Shown here piece after piece: positions 3,461 to 58,005 of a stretch of DNA of 64,000 nt (position 1 is its first letter; each line of letters begins with the position of its first letter). The position numbers and the translations under genes were made by a program. The notes beneath the pieces were generated by a model. It searched no databases, was not told the DNA's origin, and worked only from the letters and a program-made list of their open reading frames with translations. This DNA is from Acidobacteriota bacterium (GTDB taxonomy: Bacteria; Acidobacteriota; Thermoanaerobaculia; UBA5066): the NCBI GenBank assembly GCA_029781975.1, contig JAKOVQ010000015.1, positions 62,001-126,000 on the forward strand. The letters run 5' to 3'.

Positions 3461-5140
3461 GTGACGCCCGACTCCCGCCGCCCGCTCCGCCGCTTCGCCC
3501 TCCTCGCCCCCCTCGTCCTCGTGACGACGACCCTCCTCGGAGCCGCCTTCGGCCCCCGGATCCTCGCCGTCTCCGACGCGACGAACCCGGGCCTCAAGGA
3601 GCTCGCCGACATCCTGACGACCGCCCGGGCGTGGTACGCCGACGACCTGACCTCCGAGAAGCTGGTCTACGCCTCGATCGAAGGGATGCTCGGCACGCTC
3701 GACCCGCACTCCAGCTTCCTCGAGCCCGAGGAGTACGGCGCGATGCAGGAGAAGCAGCGCGGCTCCTTCTATGGCCTCGGGATCATCATCTCCAAGCGGA
3801 ACGGCAAGGTCACCGTCATCACGCCGGTCGAGGGCTCCCCCGCCGAGCGGCTCGGGATCCGGGCCGGGGACGTGATCGACCTCGTCGAGGGGCAGCCGAT
3901 CTCCGACCTCCCCATCGACGCCGTCGTCAAGAAGCTGAAGGGGCCGAAGGGGACCAAGGTGCGGATCACCATCGTCCGCCCGGGCCTCGGTGAGCCCCTC
4001 CAGATGACCGTCACCCGGGCCGAGATCCCCACGAACTCCGTCTCGTTCGCCTTCCTCCTCCAGCCCGGCGTCGGCTACATCCGGCTGAAGGACTTCACCC
4101 ACACGTCGGCCGCCGAGGTCGGCGAGGCGTGGGACCGCCTGGCGAAGCAGGGGATGACGAAGCTCGTCTTCGACCTGAGGGGGAACCCGGGCGGGCTCCT
4201 CGACCAGGCCGTCGGCGTGGCCGACACCTTCCTGAAGAAGGGGGACAAGGTCGTCATCACCCGTGGCCGGCAGGCCTCGTCGGAGCAGGTCTACGACGCT
4301 CCCGGGAAGAACACCCGCCCGCGGATCCCGGTCATCGCCCTGATCAACAAGGGCTCCGCCTCGGCGTCCGAGATCGTCGCGGGCGCCCTCCAGGACCACG
4401 ACCGGGCTCTCGTCGTGGGCCAGACCAGCTGGGGGAAGGGGCTCGTCCAGTCGGTCTACAACCTGACCGACGGCGCCGGGCTCGCCCTGACGACGGCCAA
4501 GTACTACACCCCTTCGGGGCGCTGCATCCAGCGCGACTACAAGGAGTTCATCGAGTACGTCACCCCGCTCGACGAGGACGGCGAGGGGGAGGAGGCCGAG
4601 TCGATCGAGGCCGCCAAGAAGGAGGTCTACCGGACCGACGGCGGCCGCGTCGTCTACGGCGGCGGCGGCATCACCCCGGACGAGGTGGTCAAGGCCGAGC
4701 GGCTCTCCCGCTTCGCCGCGGGCCTCTACGCCCGGGGGCTCTTCTTCGAGTTCGCCGTCCAGTGGCGGGCGAAGAACCCCGAGGTGCCCCTCGACTTCAA
4801 GGTGACCGACGCCGTGCGCGACGCGTTCTTCAAGTACGTCGACGACCAGTCGGCGGGGGGCGAGAACGGGGCGAAGGCGAGCTACGCCGCCGAGAAGGAC
4901 CCGTCGGTCATCGACCGCGCCATCGAGGAGGAGATCCTGACCGCCGCCCACGGCCGCGAGGCGGGATACAAGGTCGCCCTCTCGGGCGACGTCCAGCTCC
5001 AGAAGGCCCTCACGATGTTCCCCGAGGCGGAGAAGCTGGCGGGGATCCCGCCGGAGCCCGAGAAGGTGGCCGGGAAGGCGCCGGCGGCGGGGGGCGTGGC
5101 CCGAACGACGGGGGCGGCGGGGAAAGCGCGTACCGAATGA
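3461..5140 (+). CDS. ctpA: Carboxy-terminal processing protease CtpA/Prc (S41 family)
   Basis: Periplasmic serine protease that trims or degrades proteins from the C-terminus. The 559 residues comprise an N-terminal signal/anchor (about 12-30, after an RRPLRR basic stretch), the LDPHSSFLEPEEY motif, a PDZ domain (about 95-190, GLGIIISKRNGKVTVITPVEGSPAERLGIRAGD read in parts) and the S41 core. The catalytic pair is Ser301 in NKGSASASE and Lys326 in WGKGLVQ, the 25-residue spacing usual for the family. The C-terminal about 40 residues are Ala/Gly-rich. The GTG start has a GGAGG ribosome-binding site. The stop overlaps the ychF ATG (ATGA), so the two are coupled. Confidence 0.94.
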   Translation: MTPDSRRPLRRFALLAPLVLVTTTLLGAAFGPRILAVSDATNPGLKELADILTTARAWYADDLTSEKLVYASIEGMLGTLDPHSSFLEPEEYGAMQEKQRGSFYGLGIIISKRNGKVTVITPVEGSPAERLGIRAGDVIDLVEGQPISDLPIDAVVKKLKGPKGTKVRITIVRPGLGEPLQMTVTRAEIPTNSVSFAFLLQPGVGYIRLKDFTHTSAAEVGEAWDRLAKQGMTKLVFDLRGNPGGLLDQAVGVADTFLKKGDKVVITRGRQASSEQVYDAPGKNTRPRIPVIALINKGSASASEIVAGALQDHDRALVVGQTSWGKGLVQSVYNLTDGAGLALTTAKYYTPSGRCIQRDYKEFIEYVTPLDEDGEGEEAESIEAAKKEVYRTDGGRVVYGGGGITPDEVVKAERLSRFAAGLYARGLFFEFAVQWRAKNPEVPLDFKVTDAVRDAFFKYVDDQSAGGENGAKASYAAEKDPSVIDRAIEEEILTAAHGREAGYKVALSGDVQLQKALTMFPEAEKLAGIPPEPEKVAGKAPAAGGVARTTGAAGKARTE

Positions 5141-6207
5141 AGCTCGGCATCGTCGGCCGTCCCAAGGTCGGCAAGACCACCCTCTTCAACCTCCTGACCC
5201 GCTCCCACCAGGCCGTCGACAAGTTCGGCTCGGTGCGGGAGACCCACGTCGGGACGGCCCACGTCCCCGACGCCCGGCTCGACGCCCTCTCGGCGATCTT
5301 CAAGCCGAAGAAGCACACGCCCGCCACGGTCGACTTCGTCGACGTGCCGGGGATCGCGAAGGGCGAGCAGGAGAAGATCGACCTGGCGGCGCTGAAGAAC
5401 GTGGACGCCCTCGTCCACGTGGTCCGCGCCTTCGACGACCCGGACATCCCCCACGAAGGGGGCGTCGACCCGGCGCGCGACGCGCGCTCCCTCGACGAGG
5501 AGCTCGTCCTCTCCGACTACGTCGTCCTCGAGAAGCGGCGGGAGAAGCTCGACAAGGACCGGAAGAAGACCAAGTCCGCGGACCTCGACGCGGAGTGGGC
5601 CGCCATCGAGCGGTGCCGCCCGGTCCTCGAGGCCGGGACGCCCCTCCGGACGCTGGCGCTCGCTCCGGAAGAGGAGAAGCGGCTCCGGGGCTTCACCCTC
5701 CTCTCGCTGAAGCCGCTCCTCGTCGTCGTCAACGTCCCGGACTCGGAGGCCGCCGTCGACCCGGTCCCGCGCTACGGCCTCGACGGCTTCGCGGCGATGG
5801 AGCACGTCGTCGTGGCGCGCGCGGCCGCGAAGATCGAGATGGAGCTGAACGACCTCCCGGAGGAGGACGTGTCGGCGTTCCTCGCAGACCTCGGCGTCTC
5901 CGAACGCGGCATCGACCGGATCCTCCGGGCGTCCTACCGCCTCCTGGGAGTCCAGTCGTTCTTCACGGCCGGCGAGGACGAGTGCCGCGCCTGGACGATC
6001 CCGGTCGGCGCCACGGCGCTCGACGCGGCCGGCGTGATCCACTCGGACATCGCGCGAGGCTTCATCCGGGGCGAGGTCGTCCCCGTGGAGGACCTCCTCG
6101 CGCTGGGCTCGCTGGCCGAATGCAAGTCGAAGGGGAAGATGCGGCTCGAGGGGAAGGAGTACGTCGTCAAGGACGGCGACGTGGTCCACTTCAGGTTCAA
6201 CGTCTAG
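5137..6207 (+). CDS. ychF: YchF/OLA1-like Obg-family nucleotide-binding protein
   Basis: Member of the YchF subfamily (ribosome-associated ATPase/GTPase). The protein is 356 residues from the ATG that overlaps the ctpA stop. It contains the P-loop GRPKVGKTT (residues 7-15), switch II DFVDVPGIAKGEQEK, the G4-position motif VVVNVPDSE, and a C-terminal TGS domain (about 275-356, with VIHSDIARGFIRGEVV). It is divergent. Canonical YchF has GLGNxFL shortly after DVPGL and NVxE at the G4 position; here the first is replaced by KIDLAALKN and the second ends in Asp. The call is secure at subfamily level from the overall order and TGS domain. Whether ATP specificity is kept is unclear. Confidence 0.85.
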   Translation: MKLGIVGRPKVGKTTLFNLLTRSHQAVDKFGSVRETHVGTAHVPDARLDALSAIFKPKKHTPATVDFVDVPGIAKGEQEKIDLAALKNVDALVHVVRAFDDPDIPHEGGVDPARDARSLDEELVLSDYVVLEKRREKLDKDRKKTKSADLDAEWAAIERCRPVLEAGTPLRTLALAPEEEKRLRGFTLLSLKPLLVVVNVPDSEAAVDPVPRYGLDGFAAMEHVVVARAAAKIEMELNDLPEEDVSAFLADLGVSERGIDRILRASYRLLGVQSFFTAGEDECRAWTIPVGATALDAAGVIHSDIARGFIRGEVVPVEDLLALGSLAECKSKGKMRLEGKEYVVKDGDVVHFRFNV

Positions 6208-6507
6208 TTTTCCCGGGGGTTTCTCGATCCCCCCGGACCCCCCAACCTGGAGATGGGCCTCCTCGTCATGCTCCGGCCTCCGTCCGGGGGTTTCTCGATC
6301 CCCCCGGACCCCCCACCCAGGAGTTGGGCCTCCTCGTCATGCTCCGGCCTCCGTCCGGGGGTTTCTCGATCCCCCCGGACCCCCCGGACCGGAACGGGCC
6401 CCGGAGCCCGGGACCGATGAAGGCGTCCGGCTCCGGTCGGACGGGCCGATAATGTGTGGTTCCCCGCGAATGCGAGGGGACGGCCGGATCCGGTGAAGGG
6501 AGCTCGC
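6208..6507 (+). repeat. 71-bp tandem repeat (about 2.4 units) behind ychF with a 30-bp core
   Basis: This 300-bp gap holds three exact copies of a 30-bp core at 6214-6243, 6285-6314 and 6356-6385, spaced by exactly 71 bp. The intervening 41 bases are also nearly identical between the two full units. The core reads CGGGGGTTTCTCGATCCCCC followed by CGGACCCCCC, so its first 20 bases can fold as a G5/C5 hairpin. The first copy begins 6 nt after the ychF stop. A fourth identical core lies at 50108-50137. The rest of the gap contains GATAAT at 6448-6453 and the ribosome-binding site of the next gene. Confidence 0.9.
6448..6453 (+). promoter_or_regulatory. -10-like hexamer (GATAAT) before the GWxTD gene
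   Basis: GATAAT lies 54 nt before the ATG at 6508, downstream of the repeat array. No convincing -35 is visible. The mRNA would have a leader of about 48 nt carrying GAAGGGA as ribosome-binding site, so this gene would not be leaderless. Confidence 0.35.
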
Positions 6508-8079
6508 ATGAGAAGGACATTCGCCCCGCTCGCGCTCGCGCTCGTCGCGGCCACGGCGGTCGGGGGGGGCCTCGACCGATACAAGGACTGGAAGAAGTCG
6601 CCGGAGTTCGTCCACCTTGCCACCGAGGACGAGCAGAAGGCATGGAAGGGGATCCGGACGGACGAGGAGGCCGAGCGGTTCGTCCGGCTCTTCTGGGCCC
6701 GGCGCGACCCGGACCTCGCGACCGCCGCGAACGAGTTCGAGATCGAGTTCGAGCGGCGCGTCGAGCAGGCCGACAAGCTCTTCTCCCTCCCGTCCGAGCG
6801 GGGGGCGCTGACGGAGCGGGGGAAGCTCCTCATCATCCTGGGGCCGCCGAAGGAGCTGAAGCGGATCCAGGGGACGAGGCCGCAGCCCATTCCCGTCCGC
6901 GGGTCGGACGGCAGCATGTCGATCCCCCCTCCCAACGAGCCGGGGACGACGCTCGGCGAGCACATCGCGATCTTCACCTACGAGGCGCAGCAGCTGCCCG
7001 ACTGGGCCAGGGTCAAGTCGCTCGTGGCGACGTTCGTCGTGGAGGCGACTCGCGACTACGCGGCTCGGGGGAACAGCGGCGAGGTCCAGAGCCTCGAGGC
7101 GCTGGGTCGGACGGCCCTCGTGAGGAACCCGGACCTCAAGGAGCCGCCCCACGTCCCCACGGCGGCGGAGATCGAGGCCGGGCGGGCCGCGGCGGCCCTG
7201 GCCGCCGAGGACGCCCGGAAGGGTCCGGCCCTGGCGCCGGCCGTCCGGCAGGCCCTCGAGGAGGCGCTCTCGAAGCCCGACGAAGGGTCGCTCACGCTCC
7301 TGCCCGTCGCCACGCGCGACGAGCTCCGCCTCCACGTCCAGCTCTTCGTCCCGGCCGCCGCCGGGACCGTCCCCGCCGGCGCCCGCCTCGCGGTCCTGGT
7401 GAAGGACGACGCGGGGCGCGACGCGGCCCGCTCCGACGAGGTGACGACCTTCGCCAGGGGGACCGACGGCACCTTCTTCGGCCGCTCCTTCGCGGTCCCC
7501 GCGGGGGCGTACACGGCGGCGGCGGGGCTCTTCGACCCGGCCGGGACCCCGCTCCGGATCGCGCGCGCGGGGGTCTCCGTACCGCCCGCCCCCGCCGGCT
7601 TCGCTCTCGGCCGGCTCCTCGTCGCCTCGGCCGTCCTGCCGGCCCCGGACTCGAAGGTCGACGACGCCTTCGCGTTCTCGGGCTTCCGCTTCGTCTCGAA
7701 GGCGGGCCGGCTCGATCCGACGGACGGCCTGAACTTCGTCGTCCGGGTCTACAACCCCGCCGTCGACCCGGCGACCCGCTCGGTCCACCTCTCCCGGACG
7801 GTGAAGCTCAAGCCGAAGGGGCAGCCGACGATCGACATCCCGCAGCCCGAGGACGCCCCGATTCCCGTCCCCGAGCGGAAGGGAAAGGAGGCGGAGGGCC
7901 CCCTGACCGTCGACGTCGCGGCCTCGCTCATCGAGTCGAACCTCGGCGCGTACCTGAGCCGGCCGGGCGACTACGACCTGAAGGTCGCCATCACGGACCT
8001 CATCGCGAAGACGACCGCCGAGGCGACCGCCACCTTCACGGTTACGGGGACGCTCAAGGCGCCCGCCGCGGCGAAGTAA
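6508..8079 (+). CDS. GWxTD domain-containing secreted protein
   Basis: The 523-residue protein starts at the ATG with a GAAGGGA ribosome-binding site 6 nt upstream. An N-terminal signal peptide (RRTFAPLALALVAATAVGGG) points to export. Residues about 20-120 match the GWxTD domain pattern: DWKKSPEFVHLATEDEQKAW, then TDEEAERFVRLFWARRDPD, NEFEIEFERRVEQADKLF and ERGKLLIILGPPKE. The domain is common in Acidobacteriota-type and related genomes and has no established biochemical role. The C-terminal 300 residues look like two or three beta-sandwich modules (DELRLHVQLFVPAAAG, LNFVVRVYNPAVDP) and end in ATATFTVTGTLKAP. The gene converges with the DUF1499 gene after 5 nt. The function is unknown. Confidence 0.8.
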   Translation: MRRTFAPLALALVAATAVGGGLDRYKDWKKSPEFVHLATEDEQKAWKGIRTDEEAERFVRLFWARRDPDLATAANEFEIEFERRVEQADKLFSLPSERGALTERGKLLIILGPPKELKRIQGTRPQPIPVRGSDGSMSIPPPNEPGTTLGEHIAIFTYEAQQLPDWARVKSLVATFVVEATRDYAARGNSGEVQSLEALGRTALVRNPDLKEPPHVPTAAEIEAGRAAAALAAEDARKGPALAPAVRQALEEALSKPDEGSLTLLPVATRDELRLHVQLFVPAAAGTVPAGARLAVLVKDDAGRDAARSDEVTTFARGTDGTFFGRSFAVPAGAYTAAAGLFDPAGTPLRIARAGVSVPPAPAGFALGRLLVASAVLPAPDSKVDDAFAFSGFRFVSKAGRLDPTDGLNFVVRVYNPAVDPATRSVHLSRTVKLKPKGQPTIDIPQPEDAPIPVPERKGKEAEGPLTVDVAASLIESNLGAYLSRPGDYDLKVAITDLIAKTTAEATATFTVTGTLKAPAAAK

Positions 8080-34295: not shown

Positions 34296-36794
34296 ATGCG
34301 AGAGACCAGTCTCAACCGCACCGCCTTGTCGGTTGCCGTCGCCATCCTCCTCGCCGGCCCGGGGACTGCCGCCGCCCAGCGGGAGGGGTACACGTACCTC
34401 TCCTACGTCGGCTCGGAGGTCTCCCTCGTCTCCTCCGCCGACGGCGAGCAGGGCGCTCGCGCGAACACGCCCGTCCTCGCCGGCGACGTCGTCTCGACCG
34501 GCCCGTCGTCGCGAGCGGAGGCGATCCTGGCCGACGGGGGCGTCCTGCGCGTCGACGTGAGGACCCGGGTCCGCTTCGACCGGCTCGCCAGGACCTACGA
34601 GGCGACCGACGACCGGAACGCCTTCTTCGTCGAGCGCGGCGCCGTGTCGCTCCAGCAGTCCGTCCCCACGACCCGGGACGCGGCCTCCCGCATCGACACG
34701 GACGACGTGACCGTCCTCGTCTCCGAGAAGGGGATCGTCCGCGTCGACACCGGCCGGAGAGGGACCGAGGTCTACGTCCTCGAGGGCGCGGCCGAGGTGA
34801 ACGCCCGGACCGGGCGGGCGCTCCTCCGCGCGGGGGAGTACGCCTACGTGAGCGGCTCCTCGGAGATCGAGGTCGACGCCGTGGACGTCCCCCGCGACCG
34901 CTTCACCCTCTTCGTCGAGGAGCGGCTCGACCGCCTGACGAGCGGGAGCGTCCCGCGCTACGTCAACGCCGACTACTCCTACGACTACGCCGCGTCCGAC
35001 TTCGACGCCTACGGGAGCTGGGTCTGGGTCTCCGACGTCGGGTCGTACTGCTGGCGTCCCACGGTGGGGGCCGACTGGCGGCCCTACACCCTCGGCACCT
35101 GGCGCTGGACGCCGGCCGGCCTGACCTGGTGCTCCTACGAGCCCTGGGGCTGGCTCCCCTACCACTACGGGACCTGGACCTTCGGCGCCGGCGTCGGCTG
35201 GTGCTGGTCTCCCGGCGTCGTTTACTCGCCCGCCTGGGTCTACTGGGCCTACACGCCTTCGTGGGTCGGCTGGTGCCCGATGGGCTACTACGGCGCCTCC
35301 TGGTGGCGTCACGGGGGCCACGGCGGCCGGTACGGCCACGGCGGGTGGAACGACTACTACCACCTCCGGGGCCCCGTCGACATGGGCCGCGTCGATCCCC
35401 GGGGCTGGAACTACGTTTCGGTCTCCAGGCTCGGAGAGCGCCTCGATCCCTCGCGGGACATTCGTCACGGCGAGCAGGTCGGCTTCCGTGGGGGAGAGCG
35501 AGGCCTCGTCGCCACCTCGCCGCTCCGGATCGAACGGGGCCGGTCGGGATCGATGGTGACCGCCGTCCAGGACGCGGTCCGGCGCGTGCCGCTCGAGGCC
35601 GGCCTCGAGGGGCGCGGCTCGGGGCGGAACCCCGACGCCACCCTCACCTCGATCCTGGGCCGCGACAGGACCCTCGGGCCGGCCGCGACCGCCGTGCTCG
35701 ACAGGTCGCGGGCCGTGCCCGGACGCGACCCCGCGTACAGGCCGATCACGGTCGACCGGATCGCCTCGGCCTCGCCCGGCCGGGAGGAGGGACGCTCCCC
35801 CGGCGGCGGGTCGGCTTTGGGTCGCGAGGTCCCGCGCGGGGGGACGGCCGGTCCGCCCGTCTCCGCCCGGGAAGGGGCCGTCCTGGGCGGCGGCTTCGGC
35901 TCCGAGGGGGCGGGACGCGGGACGCCTGCGGGCACGATGCGCGACGGGGACCCGTCGTCGGGACGGACCGATCCCTGGCGCGAGAGCTCCGGCGTCGGAC
36001 CCTCGCGAAGCGCCCCTTCGGCGTCCGGACGCCTCGACACGGCTGGCCGCCGCGAAGGCGACCTCCCCGCGTCGCCGGCCCCGCGCGACAGGGCCGTGCC
36101 GCGAGGGGACGACGGCTGGCGCTCCCCGTCGGCCACGACCTCCCCGGGCTTCGTCGGCGGCTCCCGCGGCGACAGGCCTCCGGCGGACGGGAGCGAGCGG
36201 GCCGGTGGGACGCTGCGCCCCGCCGAGCCGCTCAGGCGTTCTCCCGCTCCCGCGCCCGAGACCGGCTCCGGGCGGGTGACCGCCCCCGCGCCCCCTTCGA
36301 CGGCCCCCGCGCTGCGCGCCGAGCCCCGCTCGGAGGGGTGGCGCACGGCCCCCCCGAGCGGTGAGCCCTCTTCGCGCCCCGAGCCGTACCGCTCGGACGG
36401 GTGGCGCTCCAGCCGCTCCAACGGCCCTGAGCCGTCCTATCGTGGCTCGGCCCCTCCGCGGGACACCTCCCCGCGGGGGTGGTCGGCGGCTCCCGGCTCC
36501 CGCCCGTACACGAGACCGGAGCCTCGCCCCTACCAGGAACCGAGGTCGTACTCGCCACCGGCGCCGCGCTCGTACCAGGAGCCACGCTCGTACTCGCCGC
36601 CGGCGCCGCGCTCGTACTCCGCCCCGTCTCCCCGCTCGTACGCGCCCCCCTCGGCGCCGCGGTCGTATTCAGCCCCGTCTCCCCGCTCCTACGGCGCGCC
36701 CTCGGCCCCCCGTTCGTACTCCGCCCCCTCGGCTCCCCGGGCCGCACCCGCCCCTTCCGGTGGCGGAAGAGGAGGACGAGGCGGACGCGGCTGA
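34296..36794 (+). CDS. Secreted FecR/DUF6600-type protein with a disordered Ser/Tyr/Pro repeat tail
   Basis: The 832-residue protein starts at an ATG with GGAGG 8 nt upstream and has a signal peptide ending GTAAAQ (about residue 28). Residues about 40-200 resemble a FecR domain (LAGDVVSTGPSSRAEAILAD, VYVLEGAAEVNARTGRALLR). Residues about 225-370 are dense in Trp/Tyr (YGSWVWVSDVGSYCWRP, LGTWRWTPAGLTWCSYEPWG), the DUF6600 pattern, ending in a Gly/His/Tyr-rich stretch. The C-terminal about 430 residues are Arg/Gly/Ser/Pro-rich and probably disordered, closing with repeats of the type PRSYSAPS and finally GGGRGGRGGRG. It is probably exported and surface- or envelope-associated. The function is unknown. 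Confidence 0.78.
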   Translation: MRETSLNRTALSVAVAILLAGPGTAAAQREGYTYLSYVGSEVSLVSSADGEQGARANTPVLAGDVVSTGPSSRAEAILADGGVLRVDVRTRVRFDRLARTYEATDDRNAFFVERGAVSLQQSVPTTRDAASRIDTDDVTVLVSEKGIVRVDTGRRGTEVYVLEGAAEVNARTGRALLRAGEYAYVSGSSEIEVDAVDVPRDRFTLFVEERLDRLTSGSVPRYVNADYSYDYAASDFDAYGSWVWVSDVGSYCWRPTVGADWRPYTLGTWRWTPAGLTWCSYEPWGWLPYHYGTWTFGAGVGWCWSPGVVYSPAWVYWAYTPSWVGWCPMGYYGASWWRHGGHGGRYGHGGWNDYYHLRGPVDMGRVDPRGWNYVSVSRLGERLDPSRDIRHGEQVGFRGGERGLVATSPLRIERGRSGSMVTAVQDAVRRVPLEAGLEGRGSGRNPDATLTSILGRDRTLGPAATAVLDRSRAVPGRDPAYRPITVDRIASASPGREEGRSPGGGSALGREVPRGGTAGPPVSAREGAVLGGGFGSEGAGRGTPAGTMRDGDPSSGRTDPWRESSGVGPSRSAPSASGRLDTAGRREGDLPASPAPRDRAVPRGDDGWRSPSATTSPGFVGGSRGDRPPADGSERAGGTLRPAEPLRRSPAPAPETGSGRVTAPAPPSTAPALRAEPRSEGWRTAPPSGEPSSRPEPYRSDGWRSSRSNGPEPSYRGSAPPRDTSPRGWSAAPGSRPYTRPEPRPYQEPRSYSPPAPRSYQEPRSYSPPAPRSYSAPSPRSYAPPSAPRSYSAPSPRSYGAPSAPRSYSAPSAPRAAPAPSGGGRGGRGGRG
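36520..36745 (+). repeat. Short degenerate coding repeats (PRSYxxP units)
   Basis: About ten degenerate repeats of 24-30 bp, each coding for a unit like APRSYSAPS or EPRSYSPPA, form the last 75 residues before the RGG end of the FecR/DUF6600 protein. The copies differ mainly in third positions. Confidence 0.75.
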
Positions 36795-49454: not shown

Positions 49455-49645
49455 CGGCTCATCCTCTCGGCGGTCTTCAGCCGCGCGATGTCCCGCTTGA
49501 GGTCGCGGATCTTCATCGGGTTCTCCAGCTGGCCCGTGGCCTTCTGGAGCCGCAGGTTGAAGAGGGCCTGCGTCCACTCGTTCAGCTTGGCGGTCCGCTC
49601 CTCGGCGGTCCACCCCTTCATGGTCTCCATGGTCGTCTCGCTCAT
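49451..49645 (-). CDS. rpmC: Ribosomal protein uL29
   Basis: Small helical protein at the tunnel exit. The 64 residues show [40 protein letters not shown] and [16 protein letters not shown] overlaps the rplP stop, and the stop overlaps the rpsQ ATG (both ATGA). Confidence 0.97.
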
Positions 49646-50067
49646 CGCACGGCCTCCAGGAACGCGCGGGAGACGAAGCGCGTCTTGATCCCGATCTTGT
49701 CGGCCGCCAGGCGGAACGCCTCGCGGGCGATCTTCTCGTCGACGCCCTCCATCTCGAAGAGGACGCGGGCGGGCTTGATGACGGCCACCCAGGCCTCCGG
49801 CGCGCCCTTCCCCTTCCCCATGCGGGTCTCGGCGGGCTTCTTGGTGATCGGCTTGTCCGGGAAGACGCGGATCCAGAGCTTCCCGCCGCGCTTGACGTGA
49901 CGCTGGATCGCGACGCGGCCGGCCTCGATCTGGCGGGCGGTGAGCCACCCGGGCTCGAGCGCCTGGAGGCCGAACTCCCCGAAGGAGAGGTCGGAGCCCC
50001 GGTACGCCATCCCCCGGCGCTTCCCCTTCTGCTGCTTGCGGTACTTGACCTTGGCGGGCATCAACAT
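49642..50067 (-). CDS. rplP: Ribosomal protein uL16
   Basis: Needed for A-site tRNA binding. The 141 residues include [60 protein letters not shown] and [20 protein letters not shown]. It begins at ATG 50067 (Met-Leu-Met; the third codon is an alternative). It is separated from rpsC by a 76-nt gap containing the dispersed repeat. Confidence 0.98.
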
Positions 50068-50107
50068 GATTCAGATCCCTTGCCTTCGCTCCCCTGGCTC
50101 CCCGGAC

Positions 50108-50137
50108 GGGGGGTCCGGGGGGATCGAGAAACCCCCG
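50108..50137 (-). repeat. Fourth copy of the 30-bp dispersed core, between rpsC and rplP
   Basis: On the minus strand this is base-for-base the same 30-mer as at 6214, 6285 and 6356. It starts 6 nt after the rpsC stop and in the sense orientation, exactly as the first copy does behind ychF. Its G5/C5 arms can form a hairpin in the mRNA between two ribosomal-protein genes. Confidence 0.92.
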
Positions 50138-50143
50138 GATTCA

Positions 50144-50791
50144 TTAGGCCGCCTTGCGGCGGGACTTCGCGCGGTGCAGGTCGCCCTTGTAGATCCACAC
50201 CTTCACGCCGATCTTCCCGTACGTCGTCCGCGCCTCGGCGAAGCCGTAGTCGATGTCGGCCTTCAGGGTGTGGAGCGGCAGGCGCCCCTCCTGGTACCAC
50301 TCGGAGCGGGCGATCTCGGCCCCGTTCAGCCGCCCGGAGCAGCGGATCTTGATCCCCTGCGCGCCGAACCGGAACGCGGACTCCATCCCCTTCTTCATCG
50401 CGCGGCGGAACGCCACGCGGCGCTCGAGCTGCATGGCGATCGACTCGGCGACGAGCTGGGCGTCGGTCTCGGGGCGCTGGATCTCCACGATGTTGACGTG
50501 GATGTCCTTGCCGAGGCGGCGCTGCAGCCGGTCGCGGAGCTGGTCGACGGCGGCGCCCTTCTTCCCGATGATGACGCCGGGGCGCGCGGTCATGATGTTG
50601 ATCTTCAGCTTGTTCCCGCGCTCGATCTCGATCTCGGAGACGGCTGCGTTCGCGAGGTCGCGCTTCAGCTCGGCCCGGAGCTTCAGGTCGTCGTGGAGGT
50701 GCTTGAGGTAGTCCTTCTCGGCGTACCAGCGGGAGTGCCAGGTCCGGTTGTAGCCGATGCGGAACCCGTACGGGTGGACCTTCTGACCCAT
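50144..50791 (-). CDS. rpsC: Ribosomal protein uS3
   Basis: Part of the mRNA entry tunnel. The 215 residues comprise [20 protein letters not shown] at the N-terminus, the KH domain ([20 protein letters not shown]) and the C-terminal domain ([40 protein letters not shown]). It follows rplV by 7 nt. Confidence 0.98.
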
Positions 50792-55877: not shown

Positions 55878-55909
55878 TCTCTACGTCTCTACGTCTCTGC
55901 GTCTCTACG
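55878..55909. repeat. 8-bp tandem repeat (four units) in the fusA-tuf gap
   Basis: TCTCTACG occurs four times head to tail, with one G for A change in the third unit. On the transcribed strand it reads as a purine-rich CGTAGAGA repeat, 20 nt after the fusA stop and about 50 nt before the tuf start. Confidence 0.85.
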
Positions 55910-55929: not shown

Positions 55930-58005
55930 CTAGACCGACACCTTGGCGACGATCCCGTCGGCGATCGCCTTGGGGACCTCGTCGTACCGCTCGAACTGCA
56001 TGCTGTAGTTGGCCCGCCCCTGGGTGATGGAGCGGAGCGTCGTGGCGTACCCGAACATCTCGGCGAGCGGCACCGTGGCCGAGATCACCTGGAAGTTGAC
56101 CCGCGGCTCCATGTGGTTGATCTTGCCGCGCCGGGAGTTCAGGTCGCCGATGACGTCGCCCATGAACTCCTCGGGGGTCACGACCTCCACGGCCATCATC
56201 GGCTCGAGGATCGCCGGGTTCGCCCGGCGGGCGGCGTCCTGGTAGGCCATCGAGCCGGCGATCTTGAACGCCATCTCCGACGAGTCGACGTCGTGGTACG
56301 AGCCGTCGTAGACCTCGACCTGGACCTTCACCGTCGGGTATCCCGCGAGGACGCCCGTCAGGAGCGCCTCCCGGATTCCCTGGTCGATCGGCTTGATGAA
56401 CTCCCTGGGGATCACGCCACCGACGATGGCGTTGACGAACTCGTAGTCCTTCCCCTCCGGGTGGGGGCGGATCCGGATCTTCGCGTGGCCGTACTGGCCG
56501 CGGCCGCCGGTCTGGCGGATGAACCGGCCCTCGCCCTGGGTCTCCTTCCGGATGGTCTCGCGGTAGGCGACCTGGGGCTTGCCGACGTTCGCCCCGACGT
56601 TGAACTCCCGCGTCAGGCGGTCGACGATGATCTCCAGGTGGAGCTCCCCCATCCCCGCGATGATGGTCTGGTTCGTCTCCTTGTCCGTGGAGACCCGGAA
56701 CGTCGGGTCCTCCTGCATGAGCTTCGCGAGGGCCATCCCCATCTTCTCCTGGTCGGCCTTCGTCTTCGGCTCGATGGAGAGGTTGATGACCGGCTCGGGG
56801 AACTTCATCGCCTCGAGGACGACGACGGAGCCCTTGTCGCAGATCGTGTCGCCCGTGACGACGTTCTTCAGCCCGACCGCCGCCGCGATGTCCCCCGCCC
56901 AGACCTCCTTGATCTCCTCGCGCTTGTTCGCGTGCATCTTGAGGAGGCGGCCGACCCGCTCGTTCGTCTGCTTCGTGGCGTTGTAGACGCCCGAGCCCGC
57001 GTCGAGGTGGCCGGAGTAGACGCGGAAGAACGCGAGCTGGCCGACGAAGGGGTCGGTCATGATCTTGAAGACGAGCGCCGCGAAGGGCGCGTCGTCCTTC
57101 GTCGGGCAGAGGACCTCCTTGCCGTCCTCGTCGACGCCCCGGATGGGGGCGATCTCGAGCGGGGACGGGAGGTAGGCGACGACCGCGTCGAGGAGCTGCT
57201 GGACGCCCTTGTTCTTGAAGGCGCTGCCGCAGACGACCGGGTGGAGCTTCCCGGCGACCGTGGCCCGCCGGAGGGCGGCGCGGAGCTCGTCGGCCGAGGG
57301 GGCCTTCCCCTCCAGCCAGCCGTGCATCAGGTCGTCGTCGGTCTCGACGATCGCCTCGATCGTCTTCTCGCGCCACGCCTCGTACTCGGCGCGGTGCGCG
57401 GCGGGGACGTCCACCACCTCGAACTCGGCGCCGAGGCTCTCCTCGCGGAAGTCGTAGGCCTTCCCCTCCAGGAGGTCGATGACCCCCTCGAAGGTGTCGC
57501 CCGAGCCCCACGGGTACTGGACCGCCACCGGGCGCGCGCCCAGCTTGGCGACCATCATCTCCACGCAGCGCTCGAAGTCGGCCCCGGTCCGGTCCATCTT
57601 GTTGACGAACGCGATCCGGGGGACGCCGTAGCGGTCCGCCTGGCGCCAGACGGTCTCCGACTGCGGCTCGACCCCGGAGACCGCGTCGAACACCGCCACC
57701 GCGCCGTCGAGGACCCTCAGCGAGCGCTCGACCTCGGCCGTGAAGTCCACGTGGCCGGGCGTGTCGATGATGTTGATCCGGATCCCCTTCCACATGCAGG
57801 TCGTCGCGGCCGAGGTGATCGTGATGCCGCGCTCCTGCTCCTGGACCATCCAGTCCATCGTGGCCGTGCCGTCGTGGACCTCGCCCAGCTTGTAGTTGAC
57901 GCCGGTGTAGTAGAGGACTCTCTCGGTAGTCGTCGTCTTACCGGCATCGATGTGAGCCATGATGCCGATGTTCCGGCACTTCTCGAGCGGGTGAATTCTG
58001 GGCAT
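55930..58005 (-). CDS. fusA: Elongation factor G
   Basis: Ribosomal translocase GTPase. The 691 residues have the canonical five-domain size. G1 is [20 protein letters not shown] (about 14-33), G3 [17 protein letters not shown]4 [11 protein letters not shown]. The C-terminal part has [19 protein letters not shown] and [20 protein letters not shown]-type blocks. It follows rpsG after a 222-nt gap. Confidence 0.98.

Follow-up and report, generated by a model that had tools for sequence, protein, structure and literature searches.

A REP-like hairpin repeat lying just past gene 3' ends, in sense orientation, in one family of Acidobacteriota

Results

The window analysed here, a stretch of 64,000 nt, carries the 30-mer CCGGGGGTTTCTCGATCCCCCCGGACCCCC in four exact copies, three behind ychF and one behind rpsC. 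The ychF gene (5137-6207, + strand), which encodes the redox-regulated ATPase YchF (TIGR00092, 285 bits, over the cut-off, and a gene call), ends in a TAG codon at 6205-6207 that is followed by a 5-nt linker, TTTTC (6208-6212, +), where the flank typical of the family is (A)GTGTTC. Copy 1 (6213-6242, +) therefore starts exactly 5 nt past the stop, with stem arms at 6213-6219 and 6230-6236 enclosing a loop at 6220-6229, then A6237 and a C-tract from 6238. Copy 2 (6284-6313, +) lies within the second unit and copy 3 (6355-6384, +) within the partial third unit of a head-to-tail tandem array of 71-bp units (6213-6385, +), to which Tandem Repeats Finder assigned a period of 71, 2.4 copies and a 97% match. 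The fourth copy (50138-50109, − strand) stands singly 3' of rpsC (50144-50791, −; 30S ribosomal protein S3, TIGR01009, 301 bits), whose stop, TAA at 50146-50144, is followed by TGAAT, and it too begins exactly 5 nt past the stop; its arms occupy 50138-50132 and 50121-50115, its loop 50131-50122, and A50114 precedes the C-tract. It sits in a spacer of 82 nt (50062-50143, −), and the next gene of the operon, rplP (49642-50061, −; ribosomal protein L16, TIGR01164, 192 bits), starts about 45 nt downstream of the hairpin element.

An earlier sequence-only reading had described three exact cores with a period of 71, a fourth elsewhere, and the same placement behind both genes; these hold, with its coordinates off by one and its gap of 6 nt corrected to 5 nt. 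The hairpin that it had proposed for the core is borne out as a 7-bp stem, CCGGGGG/CCCCCGG, around the loop TTTCTCGATC. A chance repeat was ruled out, as zero copies of CCGGGGGTTTCTCGATCCCCCCGGACCCCC are expected in shuffled sequence and a reversed control pattern gave none, and a known Rfam RNA family was likewise ruled out, since covariance-model searches gave no match at gathering scores across the window and none at E-values up to 1 across 6190-6520.

The 30-mer recurs at 42 places genome-wide at up to three mismatches, against none for its reversed control, and a covariance model made from 42 distinct copies gave 54 matches at 33 sites in the source genome and 129 matches in MAG-257 (G006). 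Among 60 relatives the repeat occurs in five genomes, all of one family, of which G006 is the richest, and a pattern search found no copy in 47 genomes of the class that fall outside this family. Among one genome each of 84,980 species, an exact 19-mer occurs in five MAGs only, labelled by their submitters as Acidobacteria/Acidobacteriota or Thermoanaerobaculia; the viral collection IMG/VR lacks it, and a virus-borne repeat was ruled out on that ground. De novo counting of 15-mers in 736 kb of relatives brought up no dominant new family. Several hairpin copies in MAG-257 (L077, L080, L095 and others) are adjoined by another short repeat, CCTTCCGCTCCGCTCGCTTCGCTCGC, and a 63-bp tandem array with GGCGCCGGGTTCCCCTGATCAG lies at a contig end in G001 (L241, C1:38-178). 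In the source genome (G000), contigs C31 and C49 both end inside 47-bp arrays of the hairpin repeat with the common unit ACGGGAGCGAGTGTTC, and the two contigs may be joined to each other.

The element is a hairpin-forming repeat of 30-50 bases, put more closely at about 38-48 bp, and follows one plan: a linker, AGTG(T/A)TC or TTGATC, a stem of 7-8 bp around the fixed 10-nt loop TTTCTCGATC, one base, and a second C-tract. The 5' flank is commonly TTGATC in G006 and TGTTC in the source genome. Covariation is seen in the outer part of the stem (CG/GC/UA at one pair, CG/UA at the next): double-sided changes number 24, shuffles give 8.7 ± 2.4, and none of 500 shuffles reached 24. The loop is nearly invariant across two genera, and it and the inner five G-C pairs hardly vary among copies, partly because the copies were gathered with the exact core. 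Such covariation would suit an RNA or a DNA hairpin alike, wobble pairs being too few to separate them. The lone hairpin folds at about −14.5 kcal/mol; folding energy was given up as evidence because GC-rich shuffles fold equally well (z of −0.3 to −1.4 for the 71-nt units, +1.0 for the rpsC unit), and a bistable switch between the two C-tracts, seen in single folds, found no support in covariation. A GGGG often follows the second C-tract, within 16 nt in 16 of 41 source-genome copies and 43 of 99 in the other set, compared with 14% and 5% of the respective control stretches, and the two could form a small second hairpin.

Adjacent copies less than 250 bp apart are direct in 34 cases and inverted in none, so that arrays are always head-to-tail, as tandem duplication would give; such duplication is shown by G011, which has gained one 40-nt unit relative to two congeners. 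At several loci of the source genome (L127, L129, L139, L140, L142, L145) the full hairpin is often preceded by a shortened first copy (CCGGGGGTTT, in some cases longer) and then a GGCAGCAGTGTTC-like stretch.

Placement was scored against genes called with a simple codon-usage gene finder; 32 of the 33 sites in the source genome were scorable, and the expectation was uniform intergenic placement on a random strand. Twenty of the 32 sites lie within 12 nt past a same-strand stop codon (5.1% expected, p about 2e-18) and 31 within 45 nt (14.5% expected, p about 3e-25). In the one exception, L131, a TAG 10 nt ahead of the first hairpin closes an open frame of 465 codons, which probably marks a missed gene. 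Corresponding figures for G006 are 42 and 52 of 70 sites, where about 14% would be expected within 45 nt. In spacers between co-directional genes, sense copies outnumber antisense copies 17 to 1 in the source genome and 33 to 6 in G006, and in neither genome does a site fall between divergent genes. Restricted space is no explanation for this position, since of nine sites in the source genome that have 100 nt or more of free sequence downstream, eight are still 5-12 nt past the stop. Some copies in G006 lie directly 3' of tRNA-Cys and tRNA-Ala and others just past hairpin-plus-T-run terminators, from which the placement rule is best put as behind the 3' end of a gene, most often its stop codon. 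The sequence-only reading had named two outcomes as fatal to its proposal, copies scattered without regard to gene ends and a family of only four copies; neither occurred.

The stop codons themselves are skewed. TAG closes the upstream gene at 20 of 32 sites in the source genome, as counted by eye, against 63 of 270 background genes (p about 1e-5), and the ychF stop, TAG here, is TGA at the same residue both in G005 and in G004, the nearest relative. Of 52 sites in G006, 34 stand at a distance of 2 mod 3 from the stop (34/10/8 by frame), and the TGA of the flank TTGATC stands in frame with the upstream gene in clear excess. These patterns would fit an element that inserts into or right after a stop codon and may itself supply a new one.

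Comparison of occupied and empty sites covered rpsC and ychF only, and both sites are empty in relatives. The rpsC-rplP spacer, 82 nt in the source genome, measures 9-13 nt in G002, G004, G005, G007 and G008, five relatives with S3 proteins at 91-97% identity; the element was thus inserted here, with no visible target duplication, in support of the mobile element that the sequence-only reading had suggested. In G001 the same spacer holds another hairpin of like plan, CCGGGGCCGGGTTCCCCCGGACCCCC. The 3' side of bamA is similarly varied: the source genome and G006 carry this repeat family, AGGGGGAACCCGGACCGCC, or a sequence close to it, is present in the three genomes of genus g5 (G004, G009, G011), G003 has an apparent decayed remnant of GGCGGGGGTTTC, and G001, G002, G008 and G010 have no element. 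Sites common to genera include bamA (source genome and G006), an orthologue pair between the source genome and G011, and a TPR protein, and they could be either hot spots or old insertions homogenised within each genome. At one orthologous site the stem reads GTGGGGG/CCCCCAC in the source genome and GCGGGGG/CCCCCGC in G011, a compensatory change. Most upstream genes differ between the source genome and G006, with three apparent orthologue pairs among about 31.

Further scattered hairpins of a second plan, that of the g5 hairpins behind bamA, with a CCCCCTCCGCG tail, were found by pattern search behind genes in G005, G001, G011 and G004. Sister hairpins with a GGGGGAACCCGG..CCGGGTTCCCCC core and the same tail lie behind genes at L185, L217, L238, L288, L296, L304 and L317 (genera g2, g5 and g6), and probably represent related families of like plan. 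Within the source genome, contigs C19 (L137) and C34 (L146) are 94% identical over 5.7 kb, with Hsp70-like genes 97% identical in protein, which suggests that two strains share one bin; one contig has the repeat intact and the other has it decayed, with a broken outer pair.

The source genome encodes one Y1 protein, which scores 79.7 bits against the NCBIfam model 'REP-associated tyrosine transposase', just short of the cut-off of 80. Its gene (321 aa; 1427-2429 of L106, C37:20345-23668) is flanked by inverted repeats, GGTCTGTGATCCGTGATC, that are unrelated to the hairpin repeat; it is a different mobile unit and has no convincing hairpin copy beside it. No hairpin copy flanks the Y1 gene at any of the nine Y1 loci examined, the sole weak match (L110, 103-144) lying more than 1.3 kb from the gene. 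The copy-rich G006 (83% complete) gave no Y1 match, and G003 has ten Y1 matches and no hairpin copies. The REP-type transposase whose association the sequence-only reading had proposed looking for was therefore not found in linkage with the repeat.

Discussion

Our findings go further than the four copies in the window could reveal and describe a repeat family with an anatomy like that of stop-proximal REPs and outside the described REP superfamilies. We consider it probable that the family is a REP-like repeat, non-autonomous and restricted to one lineage, whose copies insert or persist in the sense direction at gene 3' ends, where they would form a stop-proximal mRNA hairpin. Under this proposal the repeat amplified within one Acidobacteriota family, in two of its genera, and would have been moved by an enzyme acting on the hairpin, with new copies landing, or surviving, directly past gene 3' ends in sense orientation. 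At times the element would supply or rebuild the stop, its own AG completing a TAG or its own TGA being read in frame, and local copies would then expand into head-to-tail arrays. Once in place it is the first structure of the 3' UTR at most sites, and a mild effect on the RNA might be expected by analogy with stop-proximal E. coli REPs, in that it would shield the transcript from 3' exonucleases and delay ribosomes as they terminate. REPs less than 16 nt from the stop are reported to slow terminating ribosomes in E. coli (PMC12306157), and the present element, which at the majority of its sites is no farther than about 15 nt from the stop, could do likewise. A selected role as a 3'-end RNA is plausible, though the copies behind tRNAs and past terminators in G006, which would fall outside the mature transcript, argue that an RNA role in the upstream gene is not general. 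The bamA elements of several genera could, as a counterpoint, be old inherited sites homogenised per genome and not fresh insertions, and neither a transposase nor any other enzyme could be linked to the repeat.

The resemblance to REPs is one of analogy. Bacterial REPs of the GTAG and CGTC superfamilies are multicopy, extragenic palindromes of 20-40 bp found near the 3' ends of upstream genes (PMC3733652, PMC2817692), and the hairpin repeat has in common with them a short, multicopy, extragenic palindrome, a position at gene 3' ends, and complementary stem changes. That it belongs to one of these superfamilies is nonetheless highly improbable. The tag of these superfamilies is GTAG (or GTGG) or CGTC beside the palindrome; in a count that covered GTAG and CGTC, GTAG stands near the stem in 5 of 41 copies of the source genome and 4 of 100 of the G006 set, and CGTC in 6 of 41 and 2 of 100. 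The inverted dimers known as BIMEs or REPINs are missing and arrays are solely direct; the loop is long and fixed, a further C-tract lies on the 3' side, and the orientation is strictly sense. With neither tag, inverted pairs nor linked gene, a RAYT-linked REP was ruled out, and the label 'REP-like' given by the sequence-only reading stands for likeness only. Stop-proximal E. coli REPs offer a parallel in their strong hairpin no more than about 15 nt past the stop codon, the situation at most sites in the source genome; they differ in that the sequences are unrelated and that the present repeat also lies behind tRNAs in G006.

An inherited and now immobile cis-regulatory hairpin, recognised by a single protein or small RNA and defining a post-transcriptional regulon kept uniform by selection and gene conversion, would account for the nearly invariant loop beside covarying stem pairs, for the strict sense placement and for the sites common to genera. 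We regard it as unlikely, since the upstream genes mostly differ between the source genome and G006 and have no functional theme (rpsC, ychF, bamA and others), the rpsC and ychF sites are empty in relatives, copies lie behind tRNAs and terminators, and one copy has decayed on a co-binned contig 94% identical to its counterpart. Very unlikely, in turn, is an intrinsic transcription terminator. A GC-rich hairpin right past stop codons in sense orientation is what one would look for, and hairpin-only terminators without a U-tract have been proposed in GC-rich bacteria. The repeat shares with these its place directly past the stop and its missing U-tract, but it occurs at few genes, has one near-identical sequence and lies also inside the S10 operon. 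A C-tract follows the stem, TTTT occurs within 20 nt in only 2 of 141 copies, the ychF region has no terminator-like site, and copies in G006 come after separate hairpin-plus-T-run terminators; the missing U-tract and the position between rpsC and rplP, shortly ahead of the next gene, speak against a simple terminator.

Another alternative is a miniature element of the IS200/IS605 kind on which a Y1 tyrosine transposase would act in trans, cutting single-stranded DNA after a short AT-rich target such as TTGAT; stop codons would then be favoured because a GC-rich genome offers few such targets elsewhere. Elements of this kind insert 3' of a fixed tetra- or pentanucleotide, and the pentamer before the repeat is predominantly TGATC in G006 and TGTTC in the source genome. 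Miniature elements derived from IS200/IS605 resemble the repeat in their subterminal hairpin, in the absence of target duplication as seen at rpsC and in a short AT-containing 5' flank, here the common TTGATC or TGTTC, and the one Y1 protein of the source genome falls close to the RAYT model. This reading seems quite doubtful, as a matching transposase or full-length parent was not found, the copy-rich G006 (83% complete) gave no Y1 match and G003 has ten with no hairpin copies, the only Y1 gene of the source genome is bounded by GGTCTGTGATCCGTGATC, and the 5' pentamer differs between genera while the loop is the same.

Returning to the REP-like, non-autonomous repeat that we favour, a bolder version of it would make the family a new class, whose copying recognises gene 3' ends in the direction of transcription, for example by way of the transcript or of the template unwound at its end, restores the stop codon, and has left genus-specific variants at recurrent sites such as bamA and rpsC; we give this only a small chance. 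Whether stop-proximal REPs are junk or translational regulators is debated, and the present family is an independent stop-proximal case without the usual transposase, with almost all copies in sense orientation right past gene ends. Its occupied and empty sites in relatives offer natural before-and-after comparisons, and it may point to a new mechanism by which gene 3' ends are targeted, as well as to a family of similar hairpins in several Acidobacteriota genera.

The window contains further tandem repeats. An 8-bp tandem repeat, TCTCTACG in four copies (55878-55909), occupies the spacer behind the gene at 55930-58005 (− strand), and nested tandem repeats of 24, 27, 42 and 51 bp (36515-36754) lie within the open frame at 34296-36794.
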